Shown here: positions 2,315-47,031 of the stretch, piece by piece
Position numbering within the stretch: the first letter of the stretch is position 1
Layout: each line of letters starts with the position of its first letter
From: Streptomycetaceae bacterium
GTDB lineage: Bacteria; Actinomycetota; Actinomycetes; Nanopelagicales; Nanopelagicaceae
Length of the DNA: 64,000 nt
Reading direction: 5' to 3'
Assembly (NCBI GenBank): GCA_027490815.1
Contig: JAIXXJ010000021.1
Span: 1 to 64,000 of the forward strand
The notes under the pieces: generated by a model
Seen by the model: the letters and a program-made list of their open reading frames with translations, nothing else
Database searches by the model: none
What the model was told of the DNA's origin: nothing
Program-made: the position numbers and the translations under genes

Positions 2315-4897
2315 ATGTCTTCTAGCCACGAACTAGCTTCAACTTTTTCTCCTGCCGAGATTGAAGCCCCACTTTATGAAAAGTGGATCAAGGCTGGCTA
2401 CTTCACTGCCGATGCGCAATCGAGCAAACCTGCATTTTCAATTGTTCTTCCTCCACCCAACGTAACTGGTGTTTTACATATTGGTCACGCCCTTGATCAA
2501 ACACTTCAAGATTGCCTATCTCGCATGAAGCGAATGCAGGGATTTGAAGTTTTGTGGTTACCAGGAATGGATCACGCAGGTATTGCAACGCAAAACGTCG
2601 TTGAAAAACAGTTAGCAGCTGGTGGCAAATCTCGACATGATCTTGGCCGCGAAGAGTTTGTTAAAAAAGTATGGCAATGGAAAGAAGAATCTGGCGGGGC
2701 AATTTTAGGTCAGATGAAACGCCTCGGAGTAAGCGTTGATTGGACTCGTGAGCGATTTACGATGGATGAAGGAATGTCCAAAGCGGTTGTAACAATTTTT
2801 AAGAGAATGCATGATGCCGGGCTTATTTACAGAGCAGAACGAATCATTAACTGGTGTCCGCGTTGCTTGACCGCACTTTCTGACATCGAAGTTGAACATC
2901 AAGATGATGCAGGTGAATTTGTTTCCGTTCGATATGGAGAAGGCGAGCAAAGCATTGTTGTCGCTACAACTCGCCCAGAGACTATGATGGGCGATGGTGC
3001 AGTAGCTGTGCACCCAGATGATCCGCGCTATAAACACATGATCGGAACAGAGGTTCTTTTGCCTCTTGTTAATCGAATGATTCCCATTATCGCCGATGAA
3101 TTGGTCGATCCAGATTTTGGAACAGGAGCTGTCAAAGTAACTGCAGCACATGATCCAAATGACTTTGAGATGGCAATGCGCCATAACGTTCCATTTGTAG
3201 TAATTATGAATGAGCACGGCGTAATGGATGGAACAGGCACAGAGTTTGATGGAATGGATCGCTTTGATGCACGCAAAGCCGTCGTTGCAAAACTAAAAGA
3301 GATGGGACGAGTTGTTTCAGAAAAGCGTCCTTATATTCACGCCGTTGGACACTGTTCACGTTGTGAAACAACGATAGAGCCTCGCTTATCAAAGCAGTGG
3401 TTTGTAAAAGTTGAACCGATGGCAAAGGCGGCAGCAGATGCTGTGCGCAATGGTTTAGTAAAAATTGAACCCGAAGAACTTGCGCCGAGATATTTTGATT
3501 GGGTAGATAACATGCATGACTGGTGTATCTCACGTCAGTTGTGGTGGGGTCACAGAATTCCTGTTTGGTATGGGCCTAATGGTGAAGTAAAAGTTATTGG
3601 TTCAGATGAAACTGCGCCAGCTGGTTGGACCCAAGATCCAGATGTTTTAGATACGTGGTTTTCTTCAGGACAGTGGGCTTTTTCAACTTTTGGTTGGCCA
3701 GAAAAATCTGCAGATTTAGCTAAGTTCTATCCAACATCTGTGCTTGTCACAGGTTATGACATTCTGTTTTTCTGGGTCGTGCGCATGATGATGATGTCTA
3801 CCTTTGCAATGGATGGAGTACCACCATTTAAGACAATAATGTTGCATGGTTTAGTTCGCGATCAATTTGGTAAGAAAATGTCAAAGAGTCGCGGAAACGT
3901 CATTGATCCGATTGAGTTTATGGATAAATACGGCGCTGATGCGCTTCGGTTTACTTTGGCACGAGGGGCTAATCCAGGAACAGATCAAGCCTTGGCCGAA
4001 GATTGGATTGGCGGATCTAGAAACTTTGCAACAAAACTTTGGAATGCAACCAGATTTGCCATGATGAATGGCGCCACAGTTGAAGGAGATCTACCACCGC
4101 TTGAAAACTTAAATGAGATAGATAAGTGGATTCTAAGTCGCTGGTCTCAGACTTGTTTGCAAGTTACCGAGTTACTGGAAAACTACGAGTTCGCTCGTGC
4201 TTGCGAAACCTTGTATCACTTTGCATGGGATGACCTATGTGACTGGTATTTAGAGCTTTCCAAAGAAACTTTTGCTTCAGGAGATGCAGCACACTCTCAA
4301 AGAGTTTTGGGATATGTCCTTGATCAACTGTTTCGCGTAATGCACCCGGTTATGCCATTTATTACTGAGCAACTGTGGACTGCATTAACGGGGCAAGAAA
4401 GTCTGGTGACCGCCCAATGGCCAAAAGCCGACAGCTCACATGTTGATAAAAAGGCTGAAGAACTTGTATCTCAATTGCAAGAGATTATTACTGAAGTGAG
4501 GCGATTTAGAAATGATCAAGGGCTTAAGACTTCGCTAAAGATTCCTGGTCGTTTTATTGCACCGGCCCATATTGCTAAATACGCATCTGCGATGGCATTT
4601 GTTGTGCGAATGGAACTTGGCGACATTACAGCAAGTGCTAAATGTGAAGCAGCAGGAGTTGTTGTTGAGTTCGATCTAACAGGCTCAATCGATGTTGTTG
4701 CAGAGCGCCAACGTTTAGAAAAGGATCTGGCAACTGCAAGTAAAGATAAGCAGACTGCAGAGGTTAAGTTAAATAACCAAGGGTTTATGGCAAAAGCCCC
4801 AGAAAATGTTGTTGTCGAAATTCGTGAACGATTAGAAAAGACAACCTCTGATATTGCAAGAATCACTGCTGCCCTTGCTGGCTTACCAAAGGCATGA
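2315..4897 (+). CDS. valS: Valyl-tRNA synthetase
   Basis: Class I aminoacyl-tRNA synthetase of 860 residues that charges tRNA-Val with valine. The H-I-G-H signature is at residues 55-58 and K-M-S-K-S at 521-525. Between them lies the CP1 editing domain (the T-T-R-P-E-T and D-P-N-D-F motifs are visible). The C-terminal region ends in a lysine/glutamate-rich coiled coil, as in bacterial ValRS. The start ATG follows an apparent -10 box. Its stop overlaps the folC start, and valS-folC order is conserved in actinobacteria. Confidence 0.97.
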   Translation: MSSSHELASTFSPAEIEAPLYEKWIKAGYFTADAQSSKPAFSIVLPPPNVTGVLHIGHALDQTLQDCLSRMKRMQGFEVLWLPGMDHAGIATQNVVEKQLAAGGKSRHDLGREEFVKKVWQWKEESGGAILGQMKRLGVSVDWTRERFTMDEGMSKAVVTIFKRMHDAGLIYRAERIINWCPRCLTALSDIEVEHQDDAGEFVSVRYGEGEQSIVVATTRPETMMGDGAVAVHPDDPRYKHMIGTEVLLPLVNRMIPIIADELVDPDFGTGAVKVTAAHDPNDFEMAMRHNVPFVVIMNEHGVMDGTGTEFDGMDRFDARKAVVAKLKEMGRVVSEKRPYIHAVGHCSRCETTIEPRLSKQWFVKVEPMAKAAADAVRNGLVKIEPEELAPRYFDWVDNMHDWCISRQLWWGHRIPVWYGPNGEVKVIGSDETAPAGWTQDPDVLDTWFSSGQWAFSTFGWPEKSADLAKFYPTSVLVTGYDILFFWVVRMMMMSTFAMDGVPPFKTIMLHGLVRDQFGKKMSKSRGNVIDPIEFMDKYGADALRFTLARGANPGTDQALAEDWIGGSRNFATKLWNATRFAMMNGATVEGDLPPLENLNEIDKWILSRWSQTCLQVTELLENYEFARACETLYHFAWDDLCDWYLELSKETFASGDAAHSQRVLGYVLDQLFRVMHPVMPFITEQLWTALTGQESLVTAQWPKADSSHVDKKAEELVSQLQEIITEVRRFRNDQGLKTSLKIPGRFIAPAHIAKYASAMAFVVRMELGDITASAKCEAAGVVVEFDLTGSIDVVAERQRLEKDLATASKDKQTAEVKLNNQGFMAKAPENVVVEIRERLEKTTSDIARITAALAGLPKA

Positions 4898-6240
4898 TGA
4901 TTTCTCCAGATGATCAAGAACGAATTGATGCTATTGAAAAAGCATTATTGGCTCGCTGGCCAGAAAGCCGTATTGCGCCATCGATTGAACGAATTGCAGC
5001 ACTTGTAGATATTTTAGGTTCACCTCAGTTGACCTATCCAACGATTCACGTTGGTGGAACAAATGGCAAAACCACAACGACTCGCATGATTGATGCCTTG
5101 CTATTTGCTCATGGACTTCGAACTGGTCGATTTACTAGTCCACATCTTGAAACTTATTTGGAGCGAATTGCAATAAACGGGCAATCAATTGATCCCAAAG
5201 AGCTGATTTTTTCATACAACGATATTGCTGCGTACTTAGATCTCATGGATGAAAAATTTGAGCACCCCATCTCATTTTTTGAGGCGATTACCGCGCTTGC
5301 ATTTGTTGCCTTTGCCGAACACCCAATCGATGTGGGAGTTATCGAAGTGGGCATGGGCGGGCAGTGGGATGCAACAAATGTTGTTGACGCAGATGTCTCA
5401 GTCATTATGCCCATCGGTTTTGACCACATGGAGTACTTAGGTAATACATTGCATGAGATTGCATCAACGAAGGCCGGAATCATTAAAGAAAATGGTTTTA
5501 TTGTTCTTGCCCAACAAGAGCCAGAGGCGGCTAAAGAGTTAATTAGAAAAGCCGCAGAAGTTGGCGCAGATGTTGTGAGAGAGGGAATTGAGTTTTCTGT
5601 TACATCCAGAGCCGTTGCAGTCGGCGGACAACTCTTAACAATTCAGGGCGTGAATGAAACTTATGAAGAAATTTTCCTTCCACTTCATGGTCGCCATCAG
5701 GCATCTAATGCTGCAGCAGCCCTTGTTGCAGTAGAGGCGTTCTTTGGTGACCAACCACTAGATATCGATGCTGTGCGCTCTGGTTTTGCATCCGTAGTTT
5801 CACCGGGTCGGTGCGAAGTCGTGCACAGAGATCCAACGATCATCTTGGATGCAGCGCACAATCCTCACGGGGCAAAGGCGCTAGCAGAAACACTTCGCAG
5901 TGAATTTAACTTTGATGAGATCATCGCAGTTGTCGGTGTCTTTGGCGATAAAGATGCTGCAGGGATATTCAAAGAGCTTGAACCTATTGTTGATCATGTA
6001 ATCGTGACACAGAGTTCATCAGAGCGTGCGATGGCATCTTCTGAGGTTGAAAAAATTGCATCATCTGTTTTTGGCGTAGATCGGGTAATTGAGGTTCAGG
6101 ATCTTTTCCAAGCGATAGACAAAGCGCTCAGTGATTCGGTCCGCCCCTTAAGTGAGGCAACGGTTGGAATCATAATCACAGGATCTGTTGTTACAGTGGG
6201 ACAAGCTCGGACCTATTTAAGAAAGAAGTTTGCTCAATGA
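4894..6240 (+). CDS. folC: Folylpolyglutamate synthase / dihydrofolate synthase
   Basis: Mur-ligase-like enzyme, 448 residues, adding glutamate to folates (and probably to dihydropteroate). The nucleotide loop G-G-T-N-G-K-T-T-T-T is at about residues 54-63. The family's F-T-S-P-H-L motif, G-x-G-G-Q-x-D-A-T-N region and D-A-A-H-N-P-H-G motif are all present. The ATG overlaps the valS stop by four bases and the TGA overlaps the next start, so valS, folC and the DUF4233 gene are probably one transcript. A second ATG immediately follows the first, so the start is uncertain by one codon. Confidence 0.95.
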   Translation: MMISPDDQERIDAIEKALLARWPESRIAPSIERIAALVDILGSPQLTYPTIHVGGTNGKTTTTRMIDALLFAHGLRTGRFTSPHLETYLERIAINGQSIDPKELIFSYNDIAAYLDLMDEKFEHPISFFEAITALAFVAFAEHPIDVGVIEVGMGGQWDATNVVDADVSVIMPIGFDHMEYLGNTLHEIASTKAGIIKENGFIVLAQQEPEAAKELIRKAAEVGADVVREGIEFSVTSRAVAVGGQLLTIQGVNETYEEIFLPLHGRHQASNAAAALVAVEAFFGDQPLDIDAVRSGFASVVSPGRCEVVHRDPTIILDAAHNPHGAKALAETLRSEFNFDEIIAVVGVFGDKDAAGIFKELEPIVDHVIVTQSSSERAMASSEVEKIASSVFGVDRVIEVQDLFQAIDKALSDSVRPLSEATVGIIITGSVVTVGQARTYLRKKFAQ

Positions 6241-41386: not shown

Positions 41387-41965
41387 ATGCCACGCATTGA
41401 AACACAGACATTGGCCCAGCATCGAGACTGGCGCCGGGGCCAACTCATTGAAGCTGCAGCAAGCATTGCCATGCAATCAGGTGGCCAAGCTGTCACCGTT
41501 GCCGCTGTTGCCCAACGCGCAGGACTTTCTAGAACTTCTGTGTATGAATATTTCGCAAGTAGCGCAGATCTAGTCGCCGACTTAGTTATCGATGAACTCA
41601 ATGGATTTTCTGATTATTTAACGAAGGAAATTGCCCAGGCTAACTCTGCAAGCAACAGCATTGAACTTTGGATTAAGGGAGCACTTACATATATTGCAGA
41701 TGGTCGCCATTTGCTTGCAAAGGCTCTTAATGCAACAACGCTCCCACAAGAGCGTGCACACCAAATTAGAGTTGCCCACCGTGCTCTTTTGGCGCCGCTG
41801 ATTGACTCACTGGAAAAACTTCAGGTTCAAGATGTCCAACAAGCATTAGCTTTTATTCAGGCTGTTACAGATGTTTCAACAAAGAGAATTGAAGCCGGCC
41901 ATGATGCACAGGTTGAGATCGAAAAAGCTACAGCTTTTTGCATCAATGGCCTAACTTCAATTTAA
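41387..41965 (+). CDS. TetR/AcrR-family transcriptional regulator
   Basis: 192 residues with an N-terminal helix-turn-helix (about 30-65; V-A-A-V-A-Q-R-A-G-L-S-R-T-S-V-Y-E-Y-F) and a ligand-binding helical C-terminus. Effector and targets are unknown. It is probably co-transcribed with dinG. Its stop is two bases from the end of the convergent secreted-protein gene. Confidence 0.88.
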   Translation: MPRIETQTLAQHRDWRRGQLIEAAASIAMQSGGQAVTVAAVAQRAGLSRTSVYEYFASSADLVADLVIDELNGFSDYLTKEIAQANSASNSIELWIKGALTYIADGRHLLAKALNATTLPQERAHQIRVAHRALLAPLIDSLEKLQVQDVQQALAFIQAVTDVSTKRIEAGHDAQVEIEKATAFCINGLTSI

Positions 41966-41967
41966 AC

Positions 41968-42627
41968 TTACTTACTTGTAAGCGAGTACGATCCCATGAA
42001 TGGTGCGTAGACATCGGTTTTACCCGCAGCTTTCGCAAGCACAGTGCACGTACCTTTGTTAACAGTGATAGTTGTTTGTTTTAGTGAGCAAGTTCCCGCT
42101 ACTGCATAAGTAATTGGCTCTCCAACATTTGTTGTAGCCGGAAACTTTAACTTTTTACCGGTTTTTATTGAAGCTGGAACTTTAAACGCACCTAATGTCT
42201 GTTCTTGAGTCAGTGATTTGAATGTGAGTGGGATGAACTGGTCTTCTGAAAAATCTGCTGGAACCGTGTGGTCATAACGCAAGAAGGCTCCACAAGAGGA
42301 GATCGTGCAGTCGACAGTAGTTGTTCCTGATGTAAAGGTTGAGGTCGGCTTAAAGACAATTTTTGCCGTTGGCACAAAGGATGCACCTCGCATAGTCGAG
42401 ATCCAGAGTTCGGCCGCTTTGTTGCAAATGGTCGGTCTTACTCCCTCCGGTGCTTGTAGACACTGTTGAATATAGAGTCCACCTTTTGTTGGAAACTTAG
42501 AAAGGGTTACGTCAACGAGAATTTCAGCTGAAGAGATTTTGCCGACAAAACCAACCTCAGCGGCTTGAGCGTGTGGTGCTGACAAAATTGAGGCTACTAG
42601 GGCAAAAACTATAGATATTTTTTTCAC
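41968..42627 (-). CDS. Secreted Ig-like protein A (heme/corrinoid-type uptake locus)
   Basis: 219-residue protein with a Sec signal peptide (about 1-22, ending A-Q-A-A). The first module (about 25-137) has two cysteine pairs in the pattern L-Y-x2-Q-C...P-T-I-C and V-D-C-T-x2-S-C, plus L-W-I-S, R-Y-D-H and I-P-L-T-F-K. This pattern is shared with the neighbouring 173-residue protein. A second small module (about 150-215) has G-T-C...G-T-C-T-V and resembles bacterial Ig-like surface repeats. GTG start with strong AAGGAG upstream. Probably a cell-surface or soluble ligand-binding protein; the ligand is unknown. Confidence 0.75.
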   Translation of the reverse strand: MKKISIVFALVASILSAPHAQAAEVGFVGKISSAEILVDVTLSKFPTKGGLYIQQCLQAPEGVRPTICNKAAELWISTMRGASFVPTAKIVFKPTSTFTSGTTTVDCTISSCGAFLRYDHTVPADFSEDQFIPLTFKSLTQEQTLGAFKVPASIKTGKKLKFPATTNVGEPITYAVAGTCSLKQTTITVNKGTCTVLAKAAGKTDVYAPFMGSYSLTSK

Positions 42628-42681
42628 TTATTCTCCTTGTTGCTGCTTGTGATTGATTTGTCTTGAATCTAGTTGTGTAAT

Positions 42682-43203
42682 TTATTTTGAAAGATTATTT
42701 AGTTTTTTCGCTGCTTTAATCTTGATAGGTAGGTACAAGTCATAACTTCGATCTGAACCTCTTAAGTGATCAGCACGAACAGTGATGGCACATTTGACCT
42801 TGGTGCAGTCAAACTTTCCAATTTTTCTTGAGATCAGAACCTGCTCTGAAAAACTACCGTTTGCAAGAAAGGCTTTTGTTAGACCCTCTGCATAAGGAGG
42901 AGGATTAGAGGAGATCCAAATCGAGGACTCACTTACTCCCTCTTTATTTACCCCTCCACCGCACGGGGTTGGAAGTGAGCCTTTCTTTGGAACAACACAG
43001 AAAGCAAGGTAAAGACCAACGCTCTCATCAAAGTTACTTCCATTTACCGTAATCATTGAGCCAGAGATAGGTTGTGCATTCGAAACCTTGAGAACTTGAC
43101 CCTGCAGCCCGGTCACGGTGGTTGAAGAGTTAGCAAATGCGATAGATGGTGTGAGTGAGATGGATATCGCAATCAAAGTGGAGAGTGCAATCAATTTCTT
43201 CAT
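42682..43203 (-). CDS. Secreted Ig-like protein B, paralogue of protein A
   Basis: 173 residues from the ATG at 43203, with a signal peptide (about 1-24, M-K-K-L-I-A-L-S then A-F-A-N). One Ig-like module follows: I-T-V-N-G-S-N-F opening, then L-Y-L-A-F-C...P-T-P-C, S-S-I-W-I-S, F-D-C-T-x2-K-C, V-R-A-D-H and L-P-I-K-I. Two disulfides are likely. A longer frame (to 43773) is an antisense overlap with the importer gene and is rejected. From memory, similar modules occur in actinobacterial heme-uptake (HtaA-type) loci; this needs a profile search. It faces the importer across an 85-base divergent promoter region. Confidence 0.78.
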   Translation of the reverse strand: MKKLIALSTLIAISISLTPSIAFANSSTTVTGLQGQVLKVSNAQPISGSMITVNGSNFDESVGLYLAFCVVPKKGSLPTPCGGGVNKEGVSESSIWISSNPPPYAEGLTKAFLANGSFSEQVLISRKIGKFDCTKVKCAITVRADHLRGSDRSYDLYLPIKIKAAKKLNNLSK

Positions 43204-43276
43204 GAGCCCAAGTTTATGGTCAATCCCTCTTGGTCTTATCCGACAGGAGTTGAATGTATGTCGCACAAATTTTTGG

Positions 43277-43282
43277 CAGAAT
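43277..43282 (+). promoter_or_regulatory. -10 box CAGAAT before the importer lipoprotein gene
   Basis: CAGAAT ends 6 nt before the GTG at 43289. The same CAGAAT-GCGCA context precedes the parC start on the other strand. Confidence 0.45.
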
Positions 43283-43288
43283 GCGCAG

Positions 43289-44191
43289 GTGAAAAAAATC
43301 GCCCTATTACTTTCAACCTTATTGATTTCTGGGTGTGCTACCTCACAAAACTTGATGTATGAAAGTATTTCCGAGCAAGATGTAACTGGGATTTCGATAG
43401 AGGAAACTGCGACCTTCTCTGTCAGCCGTGTTGTTGTACTTGCTAATGGCGTTGCCGAAATCATGCTTGCCCTTAATGCCAAATCCATACTAGTGGGCCG
43501 TGATATTTCGAGTACTGAGAATTCTCTTAAAGATATTCCAGTTGTAACTTCAGGCCATCGGGTTATAAGTGAAAAAGTGATCGCATTAAAACCAGATCTT
43601 GTCATTATCGATGCATCGACTGGACCAAAGGCTGCAATCGAACAGATCCGATCTGCAAAAATCAAAGTGGTCCAAACCCCTGAAAGCTGGAGTTTGAAAG
43701 ACATTCCATCAAAAGTCTTAGCAGTTGGATCAGCTATTGGTGCGCCAATCTCGGCCCAACTCTTGGTGGACAAACTGACAAATCAAAAAACAATTAATCA
43801 AGTTAAAGGCAAGCCGAAGATAGCATTTCTATATTTACGTGGAACGTCAGCTGTTTATCTAATTGGCGGTCCAGGATCAGGGGCCGATTCATTGATTGAG
43901 GCAATCGGCGGAGTTGATGTGGGTGCCAAAAACCTACCACGAGCATTTAACACACTGACTGCAGAGAGTTTGGCTCAGCTCAACCCAGATATTTTATTGG
44001 TGATGACAAAGGGACTTGAATCAGTCGGCGGTATTGAGGGATTAGTAAAACTTCCGGGTGTTGCACAAAGTGTTGCAGGAAAAAGAAAAGCAATCATAAA
44101 CGTTGATGACTCGCTGCTGCTCTCTTTTGGTCCACGAAGTTATTCACTATTGCAGCAGCTGGCACTGTCAGTGGACAGAGTTAGTTCATGA
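43289..44191 (+). CDS. Substrate-binding lipoprotein of a heme/cobalamin/siderophore-class ABC importer
   Basis: 300 residues from GTG: signal peptide with lipobox L-I-S-G-C (Cys16), then a BtuF/FhuD-type two-lobe binding protein (V-V-x-L-A-N-G-V-A-E, P-D-L-V-I-I-D, L-N-P-D-I-L-L-V-M). It should capture a metal chelate outside the membrane and hand it to the permease encoded next. A much longer upstream frame overlaps the divergent gene and is rejected. The stop overlaps the permease ATG by four bases. Ligand is undetermined: heme is favoured by the neighbourhood, cobalamin by the need of NrdJ. Confidence 0.88.
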   Translation: MKKIALLLSTLLISGCATSQNLMYESISEQDVTGISIEETATFSVSRVVVLANGVAEIMLALNAKSILVGRDISSTENSLKDIPVVTSGHRVISEKVIALKPDLVIIDASTGPKAAIEQIRSAKIKVVQTPESWSLKDIPSKVLAVGSAIGAPISAQLLVDKLTNQKTINQVKGKPKIAFLYLRGTSAVYLIGGPGSGADSLIEAIGGVDVGAKNLPRAFNTLTAESLAQLNPDILLVMTKGLESVGGIEGLVKLPGVAQSVAGKRKAIINVDDSLLLSFGPRSYSLLQQLALSVDRVSS

Positions 44192-45177
44192 AGATAGGTA
44201 AGAGATCGTTTTTTGTTATTAATTTCTTGCTCGTAATTTTTGCTGGTTTGATTGCATTATCAGTTGGTCCAACAAAGATAGATGGGTTTTTCTCACAGTT
44301 AATCCAGCCAGGTAGTAATGAGATTTTGTGGCAGATTCGCTTTCCACGAGTTATAGCTGCTGTGATAGTTGGAGCCGCACTTGGTGTAGCGGGATTAATG
44401 GCACAGGGTGCAAGTAACAATGCCCTGGCTGAGCCATCGATCCTTGGTACTGCATCGGGTGCAGCACTGGGGGCAGTAATTGCGATTTTGTTGGGGTTGG
44501 CACAAGTTGGTTCTATCGCTGCGATTGTAAGCGGTGTTATTGGAGCCTTGCTTGCAACAACTCTTACTCTAAAAATTGCCTCACTACGTGGGAACTTGTC
44601 ATCCTTTGCACTGATCATTGTTGGTATCGCAGTGTCAGCGACTCTGACCGCACTCGTTGGATTAGCTTCGGCCATAATCACACAGCCAGATGCACGTTCA
44701 ATTTCTTTTTGGAACTTTGGATCATTAGCGCTGATCACCTATGAAAATCTTGCAGGAGTGATTGCAACAACTTTCATTGGGATGTTGATTGCCTGGAAAG
44801 TTGCACCAAATCTTGATCGCCTTTCCCTTGGAGATGAAACAGCTTTTCATCTAGGGGTTAACGTGACTAGAACGCGCTTGTTGGCATTAGTTGCTCTCTC
44901 ACTTCTAGCAGGAGGGGCGGTGAGCACTGTCGGGATTATCGCCTTCATAGGACTTGCAGCCCCACATATTGCTCGATTTATATACGGACCAAAACATAGG
45001 CTACTTGTAATTGAGAGCGCCTTGATTGGAAGTTTGATTCTTGTCATTGCAGATACATTGGCGCGAACTCTGGCTGCTCCCAATGAACTGTCAATTGGCT
45101 TACTAACTTCACTCCTGGGTGCACCTATTTTGGTTGCACTTGTTAGCTTTAGAAACAATGTTTGGCGTGTGCAATGA
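44188..45177 (+). CDS. ABC importer permease, BtuC/FecCD family
   Basis: 329-residue FecCD-type permease with about ten membrane helices. Conserved family segments include F-P-R-V-I-A-A-V-I-V-G-A-A-L-G near residue 51 and the G-x-I-x-F-I-G-L-x-x-P-H motif near residue 250 that contacts the ATPase. It transports the chelate captured by the lipoprotein. ATGA overlaps on both sides couple it to its partner genes. Confidence 0.93.
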   Translation: MKIGKRSFFVINFLLVIFAGLIALSVGPTKIDGFFSQLIQPGSNEILWQIRFPRVIAAVIVGAALGVAGLMAQGASNNALAEPSILGTASGAALGAVIAILLGLAQVGSIAAIVSGVIGALLATTLTLKIASLRGNLSSFALIIVGIAVSATLTALVGLASAIITQPDARSISFWNFGSLALITYENLAGVIATTFIGMLIAWKVAPNLDRLSLGDETAFHLGVNVTRTRLLALVALSLLAGGAVSTVGIIAFIGLAAPHIARFIYGPKHRLLVIESALIGSLILVIADTLARTLAAPNELSIGLLTSLLGAPILVALVSFRNNVWRVQ

Positions 45178-45764
45178 TCACAATCGATGAGATCACAATA
45201 GTTCGTGATGGGCGTGAGATTATTTACGGCTACAGTGAACAGATTCCTGCTGGTTCAATCACTGTCATCACTGGTCCTAATGGATGCGGTAAATCAACAT
45301 TATTGGCAGCTATTGCCGGTGACATAGCTCCAGAAAAGGGAACAATAACCATCGATGGGCATCATCCAATTTTGACGCCGCCCCGCACTCTTTCAAAGAT
45401 TCGCGCAATGGTTAAGCAAAATCAATTTTACTCACTAGGTTTTTCTGTTCGAGAAGTTATCGAGATGGCAGGTAATGCAGATGAAATCCTGGCCGTCCTG
45501 GCTTTGGAACATTTGGCAGATCGCGCCGTAACCACGCTATCTGCCGGTGAGGCCCAGCGAGTTTCTATTGCGCAAGCGATAGCTCAAAAAGCGCCAGTGC
45601 TTATTTTAGATGAACCTTTTGCAGCTCAAGATAATGAAAATCGCAAACGAATTATTGATTTGTTAAAAAAGCTCGCAGAAGGTGGTGTAACAGTTGTTGT
45701 CGTGGCTCACAGTAGTGAGCAGGAGTTAACGTGGGCCGATAAAGTTATTAAGCAGTTTCTTTAA
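45174..45764 (+). CDS. ABC importer ATPase, BtuD/FecE type
   Basis: 196 residues from the ATG that overlaps the permease stop (a TTG four codons upstream is possible). All ATPase motifs are present: Walker A G-P-N-G-C-G-K-S, signature L-S-A-G-E, Walker B V-L-I-L-D-E-P and H-loop V-V-A-H-S. It is short for the family, with a compressed helical subdomain and no C-terminal extension. Its last 39 bases overlap the 3' end of the convergent Nudix gene. Confidence 0.9.
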   Translation: MITIDEITIVRDGREIIYGYSEQIPAGSITVITGPNGCGKSTLLAAIAGDIAPEKGTITIDGHHPILTPPRTLSKIRAMVKQNQFYSLGFSVREVIEMAGNADEILAVLALEHLADRAVTTLSAGEAQRVSIAQAIAQKAPVLILDEPFAAQDNENRKRIIDLLKKLAEGGVTVVVVAHSSEQELTWADKVIKQFL

Positions 45765-46260: not shown

Positions 46261-47031
46261 ATGGTGACCGCTATGAAACCCTCACTGATTACAATCTTCA
46301 TTCTGTTCTTTATTGGAGCCAGCTCAACAAATGCCCTTGGAAGCGATCTTATAAACGACTGCAAGAAAACTGCTTGCGTAAATGTGTATACAGATAATAA
46401 TCAAATAATCATTGAGGCAAAAAAAGGCGATTCAACAGTCAAGAAAACTATTTCACAAGCTCCACGAAAGGCTGTAGTCAAGGCAAAGCCCTCAGTTAAA
46501 CCTCGGCCATTGTTTTTACTTCCTCAACCGAAATTAAAGCCAGTTGTAAAGAAACCCACAGTTAAATCTACATACAAAAGACCTACAAAGCACAAAGTAA
46601 AGAAGACTGTCACAAAAGTTAACTTGAGTGATCGCTTAACCAAATTAGTACCGACAGCCGGTGTTGCTTATCAACCAGAGTTTGAACCACTCGTGAAGGT
46701 GCCAGTTTACTTTTGGTGCGATCTTCCTGAATTGTTCCAAAGTCGAGTGGAGATAATTGGTGAAATCATTGATGTGACATTGCGGCCCTCGTATCTATGG
46801 AGTTTTGGTGATGGCTCCACATTTGCAACTACAGATAATGGGGCTGCATATCCAAATGGTTCAATCCAACATAGTTATCAGAGGCCAGGTTCTTATGTAG
46901 TAACGCTAGTTACGACATGGAATGGAAGCTTTACCCACAATGCACAAGTTCGCGCTGTAACCGGCAAAGTCGTAAAAATCTCAGTGGCTGCCATAAACAT
47001 AGTCTCTGCTCCTACAACCTTCAAAGGATAA
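46261..47031 (+). CDS. Exported PKD-domain protein with a lysine/proline-rich stalk
   Basis: 256 residues: signal peptide (about 5-26), a short region with a C-K-K-T-A-C pair, a highly basic Lys/Pro/Val-rich linker (about 60-125), then a PKD-type Ig domain with Y-L-W-S-F-G-D-G-S and G-S-Y-V-V-T-L. Two start codons are possible (46261, or 46273 at M-K-P-S). PKD domains mediate surface binding; the basic stalk may cross or bind the anionic wall. It is 6 bases before the DUF4192 gene; no partner enzyme is visible. Confidence 0.7.
   Translation: MVTAMKPSLITIFILFFIGASSTNALGSDLINDCKKTACVNVYTDNNQIIIEAKKGDSTVKKTISQAPRKAVVKAKPSVKPRPLFLLPQPKLKPVVKKPTVKSTYKRPTKHKVKKTVTKVNLSDRLTKLVPTAGVAYQPEFEPLVKVPVYFWCDLPELFQSRVEIIGEIIDVTLRPSYLWSFGDGSTFATTDNGAAYPNGSIQHSYQRPGSYVVTLVTTWNGSFTHNAQVRAVTGKVVKISVAAINIVSAPTTFKG

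Follow-up and report, generated by a model that had tools for sequence, protein, structure and literature searches.

The 64,000-nucleotide stretch of DNA analyzed here (the window) carries a gene cluster that probably serves heme uptake, in which two paralogous proteins, A and B, would catch heme or relay it for HmuT, the lipoprotein of a divergently encoded ABC importer. B and the N-terminal domain of A are predicted from AlphaFold models to adopt the seven-stranded, Ig-like fold of neocarzinostatin (the enediyne apoprotein fold), which went unnoticed in an earlier sequence-only reading. Neocarzinostatin carries an antitumour pigment, and in enediyne apoproteins a large, flat, aromatic chromophore sits in the cleft. 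The host is a freshwater actinobacterium of the Ca. Planktophila type that, judged by its gene content, is auxotrophic for heme. The acI bacteria, which rank with the most abundant bacteria of fresh water, depend on outside heme, which is scarce in lake water; their heme auxotrophy is reportedly the topic of a PNAS paper of 2021.

Features of the heme-uptake cluster (positions within the 64,000-nt window)
Feature	Positions	Strand	Remarks
TetR-family regulator that may repress the cluster	41387..41965	+	PF00440, E 2e-9
Protein A, secreted (predicted), 219 aa, neocarzinostatin-fold domain (predicted) and C-terminal Ig-like domain	41968..42627	-	GTG start
C-terminal Ig-like domain of A (residues 142-219), predicted	41971..42204	-	Z 5.5-7.7
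Neocarzinostatin-fold domain of A (residues 24-137), predicted	42217..42558	-	VIA-align best Z 9.4, rmsd 2.7, 97 aa
Protein B, secreted (predicted), 173 aa, single neocarzinostatin-fold domain (predicted)	42682..43203	-	conserved ATG at 43203
Neocarzinostatin-fold core of B (residues 33-165), predicted	42709..43107	-	macromomycin Z 11.9, rmsd 2.0, 100 aa
Candidate operator, an inverted repeat (CCGACA-N13-TGTCG(C/G)) within the divergent promoter region common to both sides	43240..43264		conserved in relatives
HmuT, heme-binding lipoprotein of ABC importer (predicted)	43289..44191	+	PF01497; L-I-S-G-C lipobox
HmuU, FecCD-type permease	44188..45177	+	PF01032, E 1.7e-80
HmuV, short ABC ATPase (196 aa, counted from ATG 45174)	45174..45764	+	PF00005, E 5e-32

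The genes for HmuT, the FecCD permease, and the ABC ATPase overlap and form one operon. The closest relative of HmuT in the PDB is HmuT of Corynebacterium glutamicum (5az3; E = 6.6e-41), in which heme is held by axial His and Tyr ligands, with an Arg hydrogen-bonded to the Tyr (PMC4926363). When these contacts were mapped through the PDB entries of alanine mutants, His141, Tyr240, and Arg242 of the C. glutamicum protein corresponded to His90, Tyr182, and Arg184 of the window protein, which are conserved in 74/75, 75/75, and 75/75 relatives, respectively. Because of this closest relative and the retention of all three heme-contact residues, the importer is by its sequence of the HmuTUV type, with heme transport itself predicted. 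The best NCBIfam model for HmuV was a heme ABC transporter ATPase, at a score under its cut-off, and none of the three importer proteins reached the cut-off of any NCBIfam model shown; the substrate-binding protein models listed (IsdE, BtuF, F420-0, and others) include none specific to this clade. The system resembles corynebacterial HmuTUV in its lipoprotein, permease, and ATPase and in the His/Tyr/Arg residues of HmuT but differs in its short ATPase, in partners of predicted neocarzinostatin fold rather than HtaA/CR proteins, and in that a heme oxygenase was not found.

The importer had been assigned to a heme/corrinoid class, of which the heme half is supported and the corrinoid half disfavored. 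Neither HemB nor ferrochelatase was found in the host genome, which encodes COX1 (heme-copper oxidase). Among the 121 genomes of the order (Nanopelagicales), HmuT was present in none of the 7 with a ferrochelatase versus 58 of the 114 without one (P = 0.014). A second FecCD importer elsewhere in the host genome is preceded by an AdoCbl riboswitch, and no cobalamin riboswitch was found near the window operon. The orthology of HmuT with its three heme residues, the lost heme synthesis, and the separate riboswitch-controlled B12 importer thus support heme rather than a corrinoid as the ligand.

A and B are paralogs (BLASTP E = 2e-10; 26% identity across 154 amino acids) and are presumably secreted, both starting with a Sec-type signal sequence that, by eye, ends in A-x-A; together with the domains of the operon, this agrees with the earlier description of two secreted paralogs divergent from a lipoprotein-permease-ATPase operon. 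The motifs described for the pair were found in both proteins as regards the cysteine pattern, W-I-S, D-C-T, and R-x-D-H, and L-P-I was found in B and not in A (I-P-L). In 80 relatives, residues Y65, C69, C81, W96, Y104, C133, C138, R143, D145, and H146 of the B core are invariant. The mechanical list of open reading frames extends B to a TTG at 43773, for which the relatives give no support, and the conserved ATG was used. Protein A is without a middle domain of about 95 amino acids that most relatives have. A search of plasmid records found no relative of B.

The model of B had 28 sequences behind it, and its pLDDT falls below 50 in the P-T-P-C loop. For the N-terminal domain of A, enediyne apoproteins filled all of the first nine rows of VIA-align, and its C-terminal domain resembles Ig-like domains of phage capsid, arabinanase, and intimin chains. 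The likeness to the apoproteins of the PF00960 family (neocarzinostatin, macromomycin, C-1027, and actinoxanthin) lies in the fold as predicted, with Z up to 11.9, and apparently in the spacing of the cysteines: members of the superfamily have two disulfides with partners about 10 and 5 residues apart, and the invariant pairs C69-C81 and C133-C138 of B would fit this spacing as putative disulfides. A and B differ from these apoproteins in being encoded beside a heme importer, at 14 to 19% identity and below the Pfam cut-off; no window protein matched PF00960 at an E value of 1, and one distant relative scores 25.0 against a cut-off of 25. A plain TIG/IPT domain was rejected, given sub-threshold Pfam matches only and a structural ranking topped by enediyne apoproteins. 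The common fold by itself gives no function, and no link of the neocarzinostatin fold to heme uptake was found in the open library searched.

The association of B with the importer is close. In the co-occurrence check that had been proposed, the two agree completely: B and HmuT are found in an identical set of 58 genomes among the 121 of the order, and in the 57 with both genes on one contig they are divergent in every case, with 83 to 328 nt between them. Since B is present in 58/58 hmuT genomes of the order, always divergent where a contig is shared, the arrangement is far beyond chance. Class-wide, HmuT is present in 54 of the 59 genomes carrying a B-type domain (Fisher P = 3e-27, uncorrected for ancestry), and in 49 of these 59 the domain lies within 6 kb of hmuT. 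The linkage recurs in other families and in another class with varying gene order (same-strand upstream, divergent, downstream, or HtaA-fused), with same-strand B-like genes directly upstream of hmuTUV at six loci. A few of the order's genomes have single-domain A-like genes but no hmuTUV, and a B-like pair lies away from hmuT in some distant genomes. The class sample includes 95 genomes with hmuT: of B-type and HtaA, 24 have the B-type domain only, in 33 HtaA was detected but a B-type domain was not, and 8 lack both, so that not all HmuTUV systems need B.

HtaA-type modules had been expected beside such importers, and in relatives they are there: HtaA domains adjoin hmuTUV, and at three loci B-like domains are fused to HtaA/CR heme-binding domains, the R-x-D-H motif being lost in these fusions. 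The expectation does not extend to A and B, which were rejected as HtaA proteins since neither matches PF04213; this family was found in 0/121 genomes of the order. Like the HtaA/ChtA CR hemophores, A and B are secreted or surface-located (as predicted) and have their genes next to hmuTUV in actinobacteria, but they belong to another family, and for A and B heme binding is presumed.

Between B and hmuT sits a conserved inverted repeat, TATCCGACA-N13-TGTCGG. A CCGAC-GTCGG pair with at most one mismatch was found in 69 of 77 relatives (1.9 expected in shuffles), and 60 of these 69 placements have a spacing of 15. Scans for sigma-70-like promoters and terminators gave chance level only. Most of 30 relative loci have a relative of the TetR regulator close to the A/B genes, and one adjoins the orphan A-like gene in 4 of 5 orphan loci read, which suggests a link of TetR to the cluster.

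Under the reading that we prefer, HmuT would bind heme at the membrane and HmuUV would bring it in. We infer that A or B binds heme and hands it over to HmuT: the ligand cleft of their fold would capture heme, as such or in bound form, and then pass it on, A and B filling the role of the corynebacterial HtaA/CR hemophores. The candidate operator between the two sides, which the neighboring TetR probably reads, would switch A/B and the importer together. Imported heme probably serves intact as a cofactor, since heme oxygenase was found in 0/121 genomes of the order.

That A and B bind no heme and are structural partners, for example a docking or spacing module that keeps a receptor, HmuT or another one, at the cell surface, is unlikely but deserves real weight. 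Very long anchored surface proteins also contain the B-type domain as a repeat, the domain adjoins CR domains that themselves bind heme, and Ig-like domains, of which A has an extra one, are often spacers. In the order, however, B stands alone as a secreted, unanchored domain, there is no HtaA domain for it to hold up, and its invariant residues Y65, W96, Y104, R143, and H146 go beyond structural cysteines and glycines. It is improbable that heme is imported and A and B are protective, binding excess free heme outside to limit its toxicity rather than feeding the importer; predicted secretion, divergence, and a common candidate operator would suit such a role, as would the orphan A-like and TetR module that remains in some genomes without the importer, but B occurs without HmuT in 0/121 genomes of the order, and lake water is, as general knowledge has it, poor in heme.

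Still less probable is another large flat ligand, be it a corrinoid, a chlorophyll-derived porphyrin, or a siderophore complex. FecCD importers take many ligands and the three importer proteins reach no NCBIfam cut-off, yet the HmuT heme residues are conserved, heme synthesis is lost, and B12 has its own importer, the last and the HmuT residues disfavoring a corrinoid in particular. As the genomes of the order share ancestry, the linkage is partly one event, but its recurrence, in differing gene orders, in further families and in a second class makes it very improbable that A and B are unconnected to uptake and neighbors through inheritance only.

The sole significant PDB sequence match of the A/B family profile (E = 5e-8) is ThiX, which differs as a lipoprotein within a respiratory supercomplex (the bcc-aa3 supercomplex of C. 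glutamicum, to which it is accessory); its soluble domain is unresolved in the structure (PMC8795186), and the A/B fold suggests a possible fold for it. New here is the predicted fold of B and the N-terminal domain of A. For heme capture by acI bacteria, in which we know of no route for it, the analysis offers genes with names, a fold prediction, residues that may bind the ligand, and a possible operator for testing. A broader proposal, to which we give somewhat less than even weight, is that in nature the neocarzinostatin fold may be a heme-capturing module of actinobacterial HmuTUV systems and a second type of hemophore in Gram-positive bacteria, alongside the CR and NEAT domains, with the enediyne apoproteins possibly being specialized offshoots. 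If this is true, a fold known chiefly from proteins that carry antitumour pigments would gain a general nutritional role in Actinobacteria.

The sequence-only reading had proposed a pair of paralogous secreted proteins, A and B, facing an ABC importer, and this arrangement was borne out: the two are paralogous (E = 2e-10), small, and predicted to be secreted, and B is separated from the importer operon by 85 nt, in a source genome of 1.23 Mb (41 contigs, 93% complete). The cysteine, W-I-S, D-C-T, and R-x-D-H motifs claimed for both were present in both; L-P-I was present in B and absent from A, which has I-P-L.

Coordinates of features in the window and in loci of relatives or other contigs
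Feature	Location	Coordinates	Strand	Remarks
TetR regulator	window	41387-41965		upstream of A
Protein A	window	41968-42627	minus	219 aa
Protein B	window	42682-43203	minus	173 aa
Inverted repeat	window	43240-43264		between B and hmuT
hmuTUV importer	window	43289-45764	plus	three genes, faces A and B
HmuV ATPase	window	45174-45764		196 aa
PKD-domain protein	window	46261-47031		secreted, near importer
PKD-domain protein	L138 (IMCC25003)	4832-5599		kept near importer
HmuT with Met for axial His	L137	7911-8813		
Tandem B-like pair	L129	8626-12103		apart from hmuTUV
Orphan TetR and A-like module	L132	7950-9071		
Orphan TetR and A-like module	L136	7420-8536		
AdoCbl riboswitch and second FecCD importer	L001 (contig C2)	325-3209		source genome

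The lipoprotein, permease, and ATPase of the importer matched Peripla_BP_2, FecCD, and ABC_tran, respectively, in Pfam. None of the three reached a curated NCBIfam cut-off, so the name HmuT rests on homology and ligand residues. The solved structures closest to the lipoprotein in sequence were those of Corynebacterium glutamicum HmuT and of three mutants of its heme site (H141A, Y240A, and R242A), whose alanines align exactly to H90, Y182, and R184 of the window HmuT. Among 75 relatives, H90 was retained in 74 and Y182 and R184 in all 75. Judged by homology and these residues, the window importer is most likely a heme importer. Met replaces the axial His in two relatives (L111 and L137), and G058, the source of L137, stands alone among the hmuT genomes sampled in the order in also having HemB, though it lacks ferrochelatase. 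The BtuD-type ATPase of the source genome exceeds the window HmuV in length by about 55 aa; the HmuV of IMCC25003 is likewise short (204 aa).

No Pfam or NCBIfam family claims A or B. The AlphaFold2 model of B (pLDDT 79, near 90 in the core) matched macromomycin with a Z score of 11.9 (rmsd 2.0 for 100 residues). Enediyne apoproteins or their variants made up all of the top ten chains, with the next row at a Z score of 8.1; Foldseek also placed macromomycin first (E = 5e-4), as the sole match under 0.001. The N-terminal domain of the A model again matched the neocarzinostatin family (Z = 9.4) and is followed by an Ig-like C-terminal domain. On these models, B and the N-terminal domain of A have a predicted neocarzinostatin fold. 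Sequence support is thin but real, with the PF00960 profile matching 7/15 aligned relatives (best E = 2e-5), one of them at the cut-off. Y65, W96, Y104, R143, D145, and H146 of B were invariant in 80 relatives, as were the cysteines. The pairs C69-C81 and C133-C138 would fit the spacing of the two disulfides of the family, and by this cysteine register R143 and H146 presumably lie near the ligand cleft of neocarzinostatin. Most relatives have a protein A of about 315 aa, the extra length being a ~95-aa middle domain; because the nearest relative (L033) shares the 219-aa length, the short form looks like a shared lineage deletion, not an assembly error. The B family profile also matched, with E = 5e-8, ThiX of C. 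glutamicum (PDB 7qhm chain M). ThiX is a lipoprotein in the bcc-aa3 supercomplex, and its soluble domain, not visible in the structure, may have the neocarzinostatin fold.

Co-occurrence with the importer across relatives, which the sequence-only reading had left for checking, was confirmed in the order: B and HmuT were found in exactly the same 58/121 genomes. In 57 of these, B and hmuT were on one contig, always divergent and 83 to 328 nt apart; in the other they were on separate contigs. A comes after B in the relative loci examined. Among 297 genomes of the class, 59 had the B-type domain, 95 had HmuT, and 54 had both, the domain lying within 6 kb of hmuT in 49 (Fisher P = 3e-27, related genomes being counted as independent). 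The layout varied from lineage to lineage. In six loci (L126, L127, L128, L140, L143, and L144), hmuTUV was immediately preceded by a B-like gene in the same orientation, mostly with a C-terminal membrane-anchor-like tail, and L126 had a further one after hmuV; B-like proteins had LPxTG-like tails in L145 and were fused to HtaA/CR domains in L127, L130, and L145. Because the linkage recurs in different layouts, it argues for a functional tie of the B-type domain to hmuTUV rather than mere co-inheritance. HtaA was absent from the 121 order genomes; of the 95 class hmuT genomes, 24 carried the B-type domain without HtaA, 33 carried HtaA without the B-type domain, 30 had both, and 8 had neither. 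Two class genomes of family f3 (L129 and G479, contig C19) carried a tandem B-like pair apart from hmuTUV, one copy in L129 being inside an 816-aa surface protein.

The inverted repeat between B and hmuT has the consensus TATCCGACA-N13-TGTCGG. Its CCGAC/GTCGG pair (≤1 mismatch) was found in 69/77 relatives versus 1.9 expected in shuffled sequence, at nearly always identical spacing, and has no second site in the window. Genomes without the importer carried orphan single-domain A-like genes, in four loci (L132, L134, L135, and L136) together with a TetR paralog. Weaker copies of the repeat preceded the orphan gene in L132, L135, and L136, all with TetR, which suggests that the adjacent TetR may read this candidate operator; the repeat was missing in L134 (TetR present) and L133 (TetR absent). 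The L132 module adjoins an NhaA-like antiporter.

Most likely, B and A would catch heme outside the cell and hand it to HmuT, which would feed it to HmuUV. In CR hemophores, the axial ligand of hemin is a tyrosine, assisted by a histidine or a second tyrosine (PMC12494546). The invariant tyrosines and histidine of B are putative ligands that could, by analogy, serve in the same way. The main rival is that A and B have a structural or docking role instead. HmuTUV and HtaA are already known. In the open-access literature, to which the search was confined, no paper was found that connects the neocarzinostatin fold with heme uptake, which does not prove that none exists; one open-access paper names a neocarzinostatin-like sortase substrate and gives no function.

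As for cobalamin as the ligand, the source genome has a second FecCD importer, of the BtuF-BtuC-BtuD type, which is most likely the B12 importer because an AdoCbl riboswitch precedes it. Heme synthesis is lost from the source genome, in which neither HemB nor ferrochelatase was found and a heme-copper oxidase is present. HmuT occurred in 0/7 order genomes with ferrochelatase versus 58/114 without (P = 0.014). About half of the order genomes lack hmuTUV, and since HemB and ferrochelatase are missing from most of this half as well (e.g., G006, G013, and G015), another heme route must exist there. Planktophila has been reported as a heme auxotroph (PMC12381374). The absence of heme oxygenase PF01126 from all 121 order genomes suggests that imported heme is used whole rather than as an iron source.
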